Source: Rubritalea marina DSM 17716
GTDB taxonomy: Bacteria > Verrucomicrobiota > Verrucomicrobiia > Verrucomicrobiales > Akkermansiaceae
Length of the DNA stretch: 64,000 bases
NCBI RefSeq assembly: GCF_000378105.1
Contig: NZ_KB899247.1
Coordinates: 124,001-188,000 of the forward strand
Direction of reading: 5' to 3'
Positions 34,210 to 38,229 of the stretch are shown here, in pieces; the first letter of the stretch is position 1; each line of letters begins with the position of its first letter. The position numbers and the translations under genes are program-made. The notes under the pieces are model-generated. The model did not search any database and was not told the DNA's origin. It saw only the letters and a program-made list of their open reading frames with translations.

Positions 34210-36129
34210 ATGAGTGACCCATTGAAGCACGAATGTGGTATTGCAGTCGTCAGATTGCGTAAACCAATCTCTTATTACATCGAGAAATATGGCACACCGC
34301 TTTGGGGCCTCAATAAGCTCTTCCTCCTGATGGAGAAGCAGCGCAACCGTGGCCAGGATGGTATAGGTATTGGCTCCTGTAAGTTGAATATGCCACTTGG
34401 GCAGCCATACATCTTCCGCCGCCGTAGCGTGAAAAGTGATTCTCTCTCAAGAATTTTCAATAAGGAGGTCAAGCAGTTCAATAGTTTGGTCGCCTCAGGA
34501 GATGTTGACCCGAACAATGCTGATTCTTGTAAGGGGAATTATGACTTTTGTGGTGAAATCCTCATGGGGCATCTGCGTTATGGTACATCAGGGCGCTTTG
34601 ATGAAGGCTCATGTCATCCGTACTTGCGCCGAAGTAATTGGATCACGCGTACCTTGATGGTGCAGGGCAACTTCAATATGACCAACGCAGGTTCATTGAA
34701 CCGCACCATGATTGAGCGCGGACAGCATCCAGTCTTTGGTACTGACACACAGACCGTATTGGAAGAGGTTGGGTTCCATCTCGATGAAGCGCACACTGAC
34801 CTCTACCGTGAGATGCGCGACCAAGGAATCGATGGGGATCTCATTCCGTCTAAAATTTCTGAAGATCTCGATCTGCATAAGGTGATCACTGAGTCAGCCC
34901 AGCATTGGGATGGCGGCTACGCCATTTGTGGTACTGTAGGCAATGGTGATATGTTTGTGATGCGCGACCCGCGCGGCATTCGTCCTTGTTCTTACTACAT
35001 AGACGATGAAGTGATTGCGTTTTCATCCGAGCGTGTGCCATTGATGACGGTATTTGAAACCTCACGTGGTGAAATTCACGAACTCGAGCCTGGATCCTGC
35101 ACGATCGTCAACCACCATGGTCAGATCAGTAATCAACGCTTCCATCAGCACGAGGAACTCAAGCCATGTTCATTCGAGAAGATTTACTTCTCCCGTGGTA
35201 ATGATCCTGAGATTTACCGCGAACGCAAGGCAATGGGGGCAGCCCTCGTTGATCAAGTGGTGAATTCTATGGGTGGGAATTTCGATAAGGCCGTATTCTC
35301 ATTTATCCCCAATACAGCTGAGACAGCCTACTACGGGTTGATGGACGGTCTTCGACTATTCCGTCGTCAGCAAGTGCGTTCAGATCTACTAACGGCACTA
35401 GAAGACGGCACTCTCGATGCGAGCATGCTCGATGACGTGATTCTCAAGAACTGGCCAAAAGCTGAGAAGGTGACTCAGAAGGATATAAAGATGCGAACCT
35501 TCATTTCACAAGAGAAGGGAAGAGCGCAGCTAGTGTCACATGTCTACGATATCGCTTACGGTGTGATCAAGCCAGATGACACATTGGTCATGCTAGATGA
35601 TTCTATTGTGCGGGGGACGACACTGAAGCAGTCCATCCTGAAGATCCTATCTAGGACCAACCCTAAGAAAATTGTGATTTGTTCGACAGCTCCTCAGATT
35701 CGTTACCCAGATTGCTACGGTATTGATATGTCAGAGTTAGGGAAGTTTGTGGCGTTTAACGCGGCGGTCTCATTGCACAAGAAGCGTGGGACTGACGGGA
35801 TTTTTGAAGAAGTCCACCAAGCTTGCCTAGCCGAGTCTGATAAGCCACTCGGAGAACGCGTGAACCAAGTGAAGCGTATTTACGCCGACTTTAGTGCGGA
35901 AGAAATTTCTGCTGAAGTGAGTAAATTAGTTTTCCCTGATGGTGTTGAGTGGGATGGTGAAGTCGAAATCATCTTCCAGACAATTGAAAATCTTCACGCT
36001 TCGATCAAAGGCCCATGCGGCGATTGGTATTTCACAGGTGATTACCCAACACCCGGTGGTGTAGCAACTGTCAACGGTGCGTATATCAACTGGTTCGAAG
36101 GTAAGACCGGACGAGGTTACGAGCTTTAA
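34210..36129 (+). CDS. purF: amidophosphoribosyltransferase, long form
   Basis: A 639-residue enzyme catalysing the first committed step of purine synthesis from PRPP and glutamine. After a short propeptide (MSDPLKHE) the nucleophile Cys 9 begins the class II glutamine amidotransferase domain (CGIAVVRL, NRGQDGIG, GHLRYGTSG). The phosphoribosyltransferase PRPP loop is VMLDDSIVRGTT near residue 460. Usual PurF is 470-510 residues; this one has insertions and a C-terminal extension after the transferase domain, like the long Bacteroidota form. No CxxxC iron-sulfur ligands were recognised. Confidence 0.93.
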   Translation: MSDPLKHECGIAVVRLRKPISYYIEKYGTPLWGLNKLFLLMEKQRNRGQDGIGIGSCKLNMPLGQPYIFRRRSVKSDSLSRIFNKEVKQFNSLVASGDVDPNNADSCKGNYDFCGEILMGHLRYGTSGRFDEGSCHPYLRRSNWITRTLMVQGNFNMTNAGSLNRTMIERGQHPVFGTDTQTVLEEVGFHLDEAHTDLYREMRDQGIDGDLIPSKISEDLDLHKVITESAQHWDGGYAICGTVGNGDMFVMRDPRGIRPCSYYIDDEVIAFSSERVPLMTVFETSRGEIHELEPGSCTIVNHHGQISNQRFHQHEELKPCSFEKIYFSRGNDPEIYRERKAMGAALVDQVVNSMGGNFDKAVFSFIPNTAETAYYGLMDGLRLFRRQQVRSDLLTALEDGTLDASMLDDVILKNWPKAEKVTQKDIKMRTFISQEKGRAQLVSHVYDIAYGVIKPDDTLVMLDDSIVRGTTLKQSILKILSRTNPKKIVICSTAPQIRYPDCYGIDMSELGKFVAFNAAVSLHKKRGTDGIFEEVHQACLAESDKPLGERVNQVKRIYADFSAEEISAEVSKLVFPDGVEWDGEVEIIFQTIENLHASIKGPCGDWYFTGDYPTPGGVATVNGAYINWFEGKTGRGYEL

Positions 36130-36179
36130 AACGTCAGTGCCTGAAGTGACTTCAGTCACTTAACTTATTTGAATGAATT

Positions 36180-36210
36180 TGCCTTCGAGTGCTGGCTCGA
36201 AGGCATTTTT
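36180..36210 (+). terminator. Rho-independent terminator after purF
   Basis: A 10-base stem (36180-36189 with 36196-36205), six-base loop and five T, 50 bases after the stop codon. Confidence 0.85.
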
Positions 36211-36223
36211 ATGCAATAGACAC

Positions 36224-36261
36224 AAAAAAGCCCAATGGCAGAAAAGTCCTGCCGTTGGGCT
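36224..36261 (-). terminator. Rho-independent terminator after the Cys-repeat peptide gene
   Basis: On the minus strand a 13-base stem with one G-T pair (36249-36261 with 36229-36241) runs into a T tract, 64 bases after the stop codon at 36326. Its presence supports the small gene as a real transcription unit. Confidence 0.82.
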
Positions 36262-36325
36262 GAATGCATTGTAGAGAAAAGTGGGGAGTGCAACACGTTC
36301 GTTTGCACTCGCTACAGAGACAAGA

Positions 36326-36472
36326 TTACTTGTCCTTGTCGCACTTCTTCTTTGAAGAACACTCTTTCTTGTCCTTGCACTCTTTCTTTGATTCACAGTT
36401 GTCAGCGAGTGCTGCGCCGGAAAGGCCTGCGATGAATCCAACTGCGAGGAGTGATGTTTTAACGAGTTTCAT
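36326..36472 (-). CDS. 48-residue secreted peptide with C-x5-C repeats
   Basis: A very short gene with ATG at 36472 and TAA at 36326. The product starts with a textbook signal peptide (MKLVKTSLLAVGFIAGLSG, ending AALA, cut after residue 23), leaving a mature peptide of 25 residues. The mature part is four cysteines at exact six-residue spacing, in the units CESKKE, CKDKKE, CSSKKK, C, followed by a Lys/Asp end. It is highly basic. I know no named family; metal binding, disulfide cross-linking or association with an anionic surface are possible (inference). It has its own terminator and a 120-base upstream region. The signal peptide, low stop-codon-free chance pattern and terminator support it as genuine. 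Confidence 0.75.
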   Translation of the reverse strand: MKLVKTSLLAVGFIAGLSGAALADNCESKKECKDKKECSSKKKCDKDK

Positions 36473-36594
36473 AGTGATACTTTGTTTTTTGGTTTTTGCT
36501 TATGTAACCAACCGTAGGCTACATAGTATAGAGTGATAGATGCTCGACATTATTCCAGAAAAATGAAGAAATGTTCTAACTTTTTAATTTTCTT

Positions 36595-37350
36595 GTGAAT
36601 GCTCCATCTAAGTCACTTGTCTCGAATATGATGTGTTCTGCTCAACATTTCTGGAGTAGAGCAAGCACGATCATCCCGCCCATCCCAGGGCTCAGCTATA
36701 GCCACGACTTCCATGGTGATGGTGAGGAACTGGTGATTGCAATGCATGGGCTGTGGCGAAGTAAGTTTGCTATGGGGCAGGTGGTGCGCGCACTGCAAGC
36801 AGATGGTTATGCGACGCTCAATGTTTCATACAGTAGTTATGCAATGCACTTGGAAGAGATGGTGGAGCTTCTGAGAAGCCTCATCGAGCAATATGCTGGA
36901 TCATATCGCCGTGTGCACTTTGTGACGCATTCACTGGGCTGTGTGGTGTTCAGGCGCTACTGGAATCAATTCGGCATCCAGAATCTCGGCAGGGTGGTGA
37001 TGCTGGCTCCACCATTGCAAGGTAGTTGGATTATGGACTGGCTTGGAGAATCACCATTTGTGCATTGTTTTGGGCCTGCGGGTAAATTCTTAAGCACCGA
37101 GAGCATGGCTAATGAAGTGGCTAAGCTTCCTGATGAAGTGATGGTGATTATGGGTAAAGTCCCCAAGATCACCATTTTTCAATTCGTCTTTGATGGGGTG
37201 GCCAACGACGGCATCGTGCGTGTAGACAGCGGTAAAGTACAGGGGCTACAGGATTTTCACGTGCTGTCGATTGACCACACATTGATCACGAGTGACCCCA
37301 CGGTGCTCAAGTTGAGCCGTAAGTTCCTTAAAAAAGGAGAGGTGGTCTAA
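36595..37350 (+). CDS. alpha/beta hydrolase, lipase-like
   Basis: A 251-residue alpha/beta hydrolase. The oxyanion-strand region is EELVIAMHGLWRSKFAMG and the nucleophile elbow is VTHSLGCVVFRRYW, with Ser in THSLG, a variant of GxSxG. A likely acid lies in ANDGIVRVDSGKVQG and the His in LSIDHTLITSDP. The pattern resembles bacterial lipase/PGAP1-like hydrolases that act on esters; the substrate is unknown. No convincing signal peptide is seen. GTG 36595 gives the full frame; ATG 36628 is an alternative start. It is convergent with the next gene, with only nine bases between stops. Confidence 0.8.
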   Translation: MNAPSKSLVSNMMCSAQHFWSRASTIIPPIPGLSYSHDFHGDGEELVIAMHGLWRSKFAMGQVVRALQADGYATLNVSYSSYAMHLEEMVELLRSLIEQYAGSYRRVHFVTHSLGCVVFRRYWNQFGIQNLGRVVMLAPPLQGSWIMDWLGESPFVHCFGPAGKFLSTESMANEVAKLPDEVMVIMGKVPKITIFQFVFDGVANDGIVRVDSGKVQGLQDFHVLSIDHTLITSDPTVLKLSRKFLKKGEVV

Positions 37351-37359
37351 GTCGCCGTG

Positions 37360-38142
37360 TTACGAATTGTCATCGCGACGTTTTTGTAGGTATTGCATGT
37401 AACGTCGCTTGGCTAGGAGGTCGCGATCCAACTCAGGATGTACAAATGGATTGTTATCGCCGTAGCGAGCCCATGGCCCCTTGGGCACATCTTCAAAGTC
37501 GACAAAGCGCCAGTGCAACTTATCTCCTGATTTCATACCCAAGTAATCACGCACGGCAGGGGAGATGTCGATACCGGCTCCTTTGTTGTGCTTATTTTTA
37601 GGTCGGCGATTGCCGAATACATAGCGCCAGTCGTCTGTGGTCCATGGCCCGCAATCTTCCCATTGTGCATAGCAAACTTTTTTGCCGAAAACGATCTGAA
37701 GCCAACGACCTTTGCAGACAGTTTTACCTGGCTTCGGGTTGTATTTTTTAAACCATGGAATGACCCGTTTGGCTTCTGGCTTGTGTTTGCGCCAATCGAT
37801 TCGATCGTTATATGGCAGAGCGATATAGAATGGATTCTGCCTGGGTTTGAATGCTTTTGGGCGGAACTGAGTTTTGTGTCGCGCTTTTGGGTCTGGATTG
37901 TCGAATCCGCCAAAGTTTTTAGCCCAATGGGTGTCCCACGAACTCGAGTAGTTGTGGGTTTTGTTGCGGCCGCTGGGTGACTCACCAACCCAGAAGATGG
38001 TCGCGGTGATGTTCATCTTCCATGGGTACTTGTGCTTTTTAAATGGGTTATGAGAGGCTGAACTCAGGGACTGAGCAGTAGCCATTCCTGAAAAGGCGAG
38101 TAGGGGAATCAGAGCAAGATGAACAATTCGCAAACACATCAT
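37360..38142 (-). CDS. secreted protein of unknown function, possible RlpA-like double-psi barrel
   Basis: A 260-residue exported protein with a signal peptide (CLRIVHLALIPLLAFSGMATA). The mature part is rich in Trp, Lys, Asn and Pro and has two Cys pairs at most. The segment CYAQWEDCGPW...RRPKNKHNKGAGIDISPAVRDYLGMKSGDKL resembles the double-psi beta-barrel pattern of RlpA-like and barwin-like proteins, where an Asp sits in a GxGIDIS-type loop; this is a tentative structural reading. A cell-wall-related role is possible. ATG 38142 is chosen because it directly precedes the signal peptide; the frame reaches 38187. Confidence 0.65.
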   Translation of the reverse strand: MMCLRIVHLALIPLLAFSGMATAQSLSSASHNPFKKHKYPWKMNITATIFWVGESPSGRNKTHNYSSSWDTHWAKNFGGFDNPDPKARHKTQFRPKAFKPRQNPFYIALPYNDRIDWRKHKPEAKRVIPWFKKYNPKPGKTVCKGRWLQIVFGKKVCYAQWEDCGPWTTDDWRYVFGNRRPKNKHNKGAGIDISPAVRDYLGMKSGDKLHWRFVDFEDVPKGPWARYGDNNPFVHPELDRDLLAKRRYMQYLQKRRDDNS

Positions 38143-38229
38143 AGTTAAGAGTTCTGAAGAACATAACGATTTGACATGCTGTAGCAATGAAATTCGGGCA
38201 ATCCAGCTAACACGAAAGTACAGGTTCGA

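Follow-up and report, generated by a model that had tools for sequence, protein, structure and literature searches.

What does the short open reading frame (ORF) at positions 36326..36472 encode, and what might its product do? The window, that is, the whole 64-kb stretch of Rubritalea marina DNA analyzed here, was described in an earlier note as containing at this place an unannotated secreted peptide with regularly spaced cysteines. We examined the ORF itself, its surroundings, its promoter region and its possible counterparts in related genomes, and we weighed the roles that such a peptide could have.

A tiny ORF for a candidate exported Cys/Lys peptide

A 48-codon ORF running from ATG to TAA is indeed present at 36326..36472. 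It lies on the minus strand, which the earlier note had left unsaid; the plus strand of the same interval, read as given, contains three in-frame stops. Codons 1-23 (36404..36472, minus strand) spell a candidate signal peptide, MKLVKTSLLAVGFIAGLSGAALA, which was recognized by eye and by a simple rule and for which the cleavage site was placed by eye after ALA, in agreement with the signal peptide claimed earlier. The remaining 25 residues (36329..36403, minus strand), DNCESKKECKDKKECSSKKKCDKDK, constitute the mature part with the pattern C-x5-C-x5-C-x5-C. The four Cys occupy mature positions 3, 9, 15 and 21, and 10 of the 25 residues are Lys, so the six-residue spacing and the Lys-rich character that had been noted both hold. 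With seven Asp or Glu residues the tail has a net charge of +3, and it contains no aromatic or aliphatic residue at all.

We asked how unusual such an arrangement is. Four Cys can be distributed over 25 positions in 12,650 ways, seven of which give a spacing of six and 92 of which give any equal spacing. Small ORFs with a signal-like start are by themselves ordinary, with 14 in the window versus a mean of 15.2 per simulated window. The C-x5-C-x5-C-x5-C pattern in signal-like small ORFs, as defined by the simple signal rule, was absent from 40 Markov-simulated windows. The gene is present in its own genome as one copy (100% match). Judged by its sequence, we take this 48-residue ORF to be real and to encode a tiny peptide of the exported type.

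The gene has its own terminator and looks like a single transcription unit

The suggestion that the gene possesses its own terminator is backed by folding. An intrinsic terminator is predicted at 36224..36261 on the minus strand, where a stem of 14 pairs flanking one mismatch is followed by a T run. A second hairpin is predicted in the 3' untranslated region (36286..36310, minus strand), and the 116-nt stretch that includes both structures folds with -37 kcal/mol (z -4.4), a value that 0 of 200 shuffles equaled. The output of a simple terminator scan did not include the structure at 36224..36261, probably because of the mismatch in its stem. A simple scan for sigma-70-type promoters found none within 36100-36650, and a search of 36100-36700 against Rfam returned just two matches, both on the plus strand and both far under their gathering scores. 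The frame beyond the TAA stop (36270-36325, minus strand) contains many Cys (SCLCSECKRTCC) and coincides in part with a stable hairpin. Readthrough into this frame was considered and its Cys content was taken as chance; selenocysteine readthrough does not apply because the stop is TAA and not TGA.

The next gene downstream is purF, which is on the opposite strand, and the peptide gene looks from this arrangement like a single transcription unit. Its divergent neighbor (36595..37350, plus strand) encodes a lipase-like alpha/beta hydrolase that scores 26.0 bits against Pfam Abhydrolase_6, just under the cut-off of 26.3. Adjoining the hydrolase gene is that of a secreted-looking protein (37360..38187, minus strand) for which no Pfam family was found at E ≤ 0.01. 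These two genes served as synteny markers.

The six-residue spacing is confined to one genome in direct searches

Direct searches with the 48-residue peptide were conducted at several depths. At E ≤ 0.01, a match was found in 1 of 260 family genomes, namely its own. The 387 phylum genomes yielded two matches, the genome of origin and one at chance level (E 0.009), and the latter was rejected as a homologue, lying as it does in a 279-residue frame of unrelated character. No homologue was confirmed in the species-genome collection or in the viral contigs. The earlier note had named a conserved homologue with the same Cys spacing as a check, and within the family none was found. Its statement that the peptide matches no family stands: Pfam gave only one match, to an unrelated RETICULATA-like model at E 0.15 and below the cut-off, NCBIfam gave none, and the search of PDB sequences was without a match at E ≤ 1. 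Weak matches at E ≤ 1 occurred in 58 genomes and were mostly unrelated on translation; a member of the Cys/Lys repeat proteins described below accounts for that in G021, a Cys-rich lipoprotein for that in G008 and a Cys/His-rich frame for that in G023. What recurs in the family is the architecture of a signal peptide with a Cys/Lys-rich tail, the genomic slot in two congeners and a promoter motif, and not the six-residue spacing.

The same genomic slot holds an exported HMA protein in two congeners

The divergent hydrolase was used to locate the equivalent slot in 12 genus genomes, with flanks of about 1.5 kb read on each side (less in locus L016). The hydrolase was matched in 11 of the 12, its genome of origin (G000) included. 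Two of the 10 other hydrolase genomes, G007 and G005, carry a counterpart gene divergent from the hydrolase; in the flanks read and under the filters applied, the other eight show no such gene. The secreted-looking counterparts, 125 and 128 residues in length, consist of a signal peptide, a Cys/Lys-rich stretch and an HMA domain, which is above the curated cut-off of PF00403 in both genomes and bears GMTCGGC motifs. The second marker protein is 61% identical in G007 and 67% identical in G005, and its gene immediately follows that of the hydrolase in the window and likewise in G007. In G005 it comes two genes later. A gene with DUF6797 and plastocyanin/azurin domains adjoins the hydrolase in G005, one gene away from that of the HMA protein. 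A gene with a DsbD_N domain is also present in this G005 neighborhood. Since the slot holds a larger exported HMA protein in two congeners, the R. marina gene probably encodes a stripped-down metal-binding peptide.

A promoter motif is shared with Cys/Lys-rich genes of relatives

Upstream of the peptide gene there is a -35-like element of the ECF type, GGAATAA (36550..36556, minus strand), 84 nt before the ATG, and a two-block model places a -10-like element, CTCTATAC, at 36526..36533 on the same strand. Just downstream of the latter is an imperfect inverted repeat, TGTAACC-N7-GGCTACA (36503..36523), which from its sequence could possibly be an operator or a leader hairpin. The form of the two-part motif is one that we take to resemble ECF sigma promoters.

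GGAATAA was first spotted by eye in a list of upstream regions that contained the window. In a first count, it occurred exactly in 13 of 43 Cys/Lys-rich ORFs versus 3 of 215 other ORFs, where the 43 had been chosen by composition with the window included and two of them probably spurious, and the 215 had not been de-duplicated. Because the window was among the upstreams in which the motif had first been seen, k-mers were counted again with no seed and with the window's site left out. Of the 15 upstream regions, which come from 13 relatives, 11 contain GGAATAA versus 2 of 67 controls, and 14 contain GAATAA versus 4 of 67. The 67 controls were ORFs of at least 200 aa in the fetched loci, one of which (L013) is from the R. 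marina genome itself.

The two-block model was learned on the 15 upstream regions without the window and was seeded with GGAATAA. Its consensus is cGGAATAAA followed by CTCTTAnt, with GGAATAA and the second block 13-16 nt apart. When both strands of the 64 kb were scored, the site of the peptide gene ranked third among about 128,000 start positions; the two higher-scoring sites are inside ORFs, and that of the peptide gene is the highest outside ORFs of at least 100 aa. Only 1 of 117 control upstreams scored as high. The combination of GGAATAA with CTC 14-17 nt later has a single occurrence in the 64 kb, the one at the peptide gene, while GGAATAA alone shows no excess, with five sites versus 5.3 expected. 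The peptide gene agrees with the set of Cys/Lys-rich genes in its motif, taken as GGAATAA with CTC about 13-16 nt further on and 60-115 nt before the ATG, and its product agrees with the set in architecture, taken as a signal peptide (by eye and by the simple rule) together with a hydrophilic Cys/Lys-rich stretch.

The model was also applied to genes beyond its training set. The seven g13 repeat proteins listed, none of them used in training, all score at a level reached by at most 4 of the 117 controls. At that same level are one of five g10/g11 repeat proteins and two of seven g9/g16 HMA forms, and many of the g10/g11 repeat proteins and g9/g16 HMA forms are preceded by a weak version of the motif or by none.

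Long and short forms occur across the family

The distribution of the longer form was examined with the HMA protein of G007. Matches at E ≤ 1e-6 were found in 36 of 254 family genomes, and many of these are secreted Cys/Lys proteins with one or two HMA domains. Six g3 genomes match only through frames of about 800-1080 residues that are P-type-ATPase-like, and some genomes match only through TGA-containing proteins. In a sample of the order, 19 of 386 genomes were matched at E ≤ 1e-8 and every one of them is a family member. Nine of the 12 genus genomes have the form with a Cys/Lys stretch and an HMA domain, and G000, G003 and G008 gave no match at E ≤ 1e-6. The search of the R. marina genome with the G007 protein returned nothing, and the HMA domains of this genome comprise one over the Pfam cut-off, in a 778-residue P-type ATPase frame, and two below it. 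A sub-threshold HMA match with a TGA in this genome was discarded, its frame being full of stops.

Smaller forms were also seen in the genus. G007 has, besides its HMA protein, a second form of 45 residues with two Cys and no HMA domain, MTIKNTIIAATGFLALTGFAMAESDGGCKGGGCKGKKGDKTEKVD, which is followed by a terminator-like hairpin and adjoins a gene with DUF6797 and plastocyanin/azurin (cupredoxin) domains. G008 has a 54-residue Cys/Lys/His lipoprotein, and in G003 there is a profile match within a 119-residue frame. Taken together, the R. marina peptide, the 45-residue form of G007 and the lipoprotein of G008 indicate that small HMA-less forms recur.

Other Cys/Lys-rich proteins were observed in more distant members of the family. 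In all four g12 loci read, L026 (1245-1463), L029 (2124-2378), L032 (896-1165) and L035 (2234-2440), a Cys/Lys-rich lipoprotein-like gene of 68-89 residues comes after that of the HMA protein; a GGAATAA site of its own accompanies the L026 gene and is missing from that in L035. Loci L098, L101, L103, L105, L107, L108, L110, L111, L113, L114 and L116-L119 (g10, g11 and g13) encode secreted-looking repeat proteins of 82-181 residues without an HMA domain. These are built from units such as KCKKKCDKEEEESTLVAE or DCKKCKKDGEEAKEEGTLAG, and most end in TLA or alike. Neither Pfam nor NCBIfam gave a match for the 174-residue protein of L116, and the 131-residue protein of L098 has only a sub-threshold match in NCBIfam.

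A further observation concerns the TGA-containing proteins. Loci L056-L061, from G243, G004, G265, G002, G259 and G011, encode small HMA-like proteins in which an in-frame TGA takes the position of the metal motif's first Cys (GMT*xxGC, GLK*ASGC). Most of them begin with a lipobox-like sequence, and three loci contain tandem copies. From their sequences, these are candidate selenoproteins. Of 18 genomes searched, the R. marina genome counted in, 11 have a tRNA-Sec above the Rfam cut-off, as do 5 of 14 control genomes. Five of the six genomes with TGA-containing proteins have it, the exception being G265. ARAGORN calls tRNA-Sec in 9 of 10 loci scanned, and the tRNA-Sec gene of R. marina itself is in L128 (G000:C22:20253-20343). 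NCBIfam already holds models for metal-binding selenoproteins, and MerP is an entry in the marine selenoprotein table of PMC2398784.

Common descent with the HMA form

Is the 48-residue peptide related by descent to the HMA proteins in the same slot? BLASTP aligned it to the G007 protein with 24 of 62 columns identical (E 4e-4 as a single comparison). Block shuffles that kept the composition reached the observed score in 23 of 2000 cases against the G007 protein, 23 of 2000 against the G007 short form and 12 of 2000 against the G005 protein, while for two further congener HMA proteins 260 and 351 of 2000 did so. The signal peptide alone, compared with the two G007 proteins, beat all but 1 and 2 of 2000 shuffles, which is a weak null because its pattern is common to all signal peptides. 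A profile (A1) built from 11 short and N-terminal forms listed 9 of its own 11 rows at E ≤ 0.1, and neither the 48-residue peptide nor the G005 protein was among its matches. Given the rates of the block shuffles, sequence similarity taken alone is weak evidence of common descent. We infer common descent instead from the shared slot and the shared promoter motif.

A proposed role in binding soft metal ions outside the cytoplasm

We lean slightly toward the explanation that the gene encodes a small exported thiol peptide which binds soft metal ions, most likely Cu(I), and which is a reduced counterpart of the HMA form. In this proposal, an ECF-type sigma factor would turn the gene on and the Sec pathway would export and trim the product, which would then be located in the periplasm or outside the cell. 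The four Cys in its hydrophilic Lys tail could bind a single metal ion or, between molecules, jointly coordinate a small cluster, and the peptide may serve as a minimal extracytoplasmic buffer or sponge for metals. It would correspond to the proteins that combine a signal peptide, a Cys/Lys stretch and an HMA domain, with the same slot and motif, reduced to its first two parts.

The link to metals is drawn from the HMA domain of the counterparts, from neighbors with cupredoxin domains and from the pairing of the C-x2-KK[EK]-C repeat, which is also that of the peptide, with HMA-like domains elsewhere. A collection of 84,980 species genomes yielded 22 places with this pattern. At three of the 22, all in Prevotella, the repeat is joined to a secreted HMA-like domain recognized by eye. 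Ten others are by eye secreted or lipoprotein Cys/Lys proteins, including a 78-residue protein of Kiritimatiellales (L072), and the remaining nine are other or implausible frames. An ORF listing around nine of the 22 places, inspected by eye, showed no consistent metal gene. A metal-binding secreted peptide had been one of the possibilities raised in the earlier note. The HMA counterparts, the shared motif and the Prevotella fusions lend it indirect support, and the homologue with the same spacing that was to accompany it did not appear within the family.

The choice of copper over other soft metals is a guess, since the rankings are mixed. Compared with solved structures, the HMA domain of G007 is closest to copper ATPases and copper chaperones, with MerP lower. 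In NCBIfam, the G007 protein ranks the mercuric MerTP fusion first with CopZ just under it, and the G005 protein ranks CopZ first, all of these matches being below their cut-offs.

The main rival to a metal buffer is a disulfide-forming redox peptide. Under oxidative stress its exported thiols would be oxidized and then reduced again or cross-linked, and metals would play an incidental part. The Cys of an exported peptide may form disulfides in an oxidizing periplasm, and stress to thiols or to the envelope is another typical setting of ECF-type promoters, so that the promoter, together with the DsbD_N-domain gene in the G005 neighborhood, is in keeping with such a role. The HMA domains with GMTCGGC motifs in the counterparts argue against it, as does a tail that lacks any fold-forming hydrophobic residue. 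We consider a redox peptide unlikely.

The gene could also be a leftover, a stump of a protein with signal peptide, Cys/Lys stretch and HMA domain that has lost the HMA domain and is useless now, whether expressed or not. The slot and the motif shared with the HMA form fit such a history, as does a genome that has no match to the G007 HMA protein and whose sole HMA domain over the Pfam cut-off is in a P-type ATPase. Against it, the ORF ends in a clean stop with 64 nt to the terminator, too little for an HMA domain, and G007 has its 45-residue HMA-less form while an intact HMA form stands elsewhere in the same genome. In our judgement, moreover, the six-residue repeat looks orderly rather than decayed. 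A leftover is in our estimate rather improbable.

A secreted antimicrobial or signaling peptide is more improbable still. Its small size, probable export and net charge of +3 would suit such a function, but the tail is without aliphatic or aromatic residues, and purF, the hydrolase and the second marker include no transporter, immunity or maturation gene.

Very improbable is a ribosomally made, modified peptide (RiPP) of the bufferin kind, in which an MNIO enzyme would oxidize Cys to thiooxazole-type groups before export and copper binding. The candidate signal peptide, the low-complexity Cys/Lys composition and the sigma-factor-type promoter are reminiscent of bufferins, the precursors of which are described with Sec signal peptides and in some cases as single-gene units (PMC12452194). 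MNIO (PF05114) has 0 matches in the R. marina genome, which is 95.5% complete, and a bufferin is unlikely for this reason. The same search did detect MNIO in 2 of 12 genus genomes (G005 and G007) as well as in 2 of 14 controls.

A role as a leader peptide whose stalling controls a gene further downstream, reportedly that of the exported copper-sensing protein CutF, is likewise very improbable given the anatomy of the locus, in which the gene's own terminator and purF on the other strand leave no gene for regulation in cis. The resemblance here is that of one small exported Cys peptide to another (cf. PMC9973294).

The peptide is best regarded as belonging, among the smallest members, to a set of exported Cys/Lys proteins that extends through the family, is linked by the promoter motif and has ties to metal handling. 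A broader and more doubtful proposal is that ECF-controlled, exported, unmodified, low-complexity Cys/Lys proteins form a family-wide, secreted, metallothionein-like metal buffer, unlike bufferins and unlike chaperones of the CusF/CopZ type. Such a set would comprise 48-residue minimal peptides, tandem-repeat proteins, Cys-rich lipoproteins and HMA fusions, with the 48-residue peptide among its smallest members. We found no description of this protein set in those parts of the open-licence literature that were consulted. Genes so short and of such low complexity are easily missed by gene finders and similarity searches, and for that reason some of the metal handling that this group carries out beyond the cytoplasm may go unseen. 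The shared promoter motif provides a practical route to the rest of the set and to the stress that it answers.

Comparison with known systems

Bufferins and the related Buf_EGKCG-oxazolins resemble this peptide, with its candidate signal peptide, in having a signal peptide on a small Cys-containing precursor, and sigma-factor genes are among the gene types counted in MNIO clusters (PMC12452194). The peptide differs from them in that its genome has no MNIO match and no partner gene is found beside its own.

The similarity to HMA proteins (MerP and CopZ-like; PF00403) is indirect: the same-slot counterparts in G007 and G005 carry the domain, whereas the 48-residue peptide itself has no HMA match. 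The counterparts match the MerTP, CopZ and MerP models below their cut-offs, and they have a Cys/Lys-rich stretch ahead of the HMA domain.

Bacterial metallothioneins are small, rich in Cys and Lys and devoid of aromatic residues. The peptide is like them in its size, its Cys/Lys richness and its lack of aromatic residues, and it matches no metallothionein model in Pfam or NCBIfam. It differs from them in its candidate signal peptide, in having as few as four Cys and in the regular C-x5-C spacing of these.

Finally, the secreted HMA-like proteins of Prevotella (L071, L073 and L086) combine a signal peptide with the same six-residue Cys/Lys repeat. There the repeat comes after the CxxC domain, the reverse of the order in the family of R. 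marina. As Prevotella belongs to a distant group, this likeness is probably convergent.
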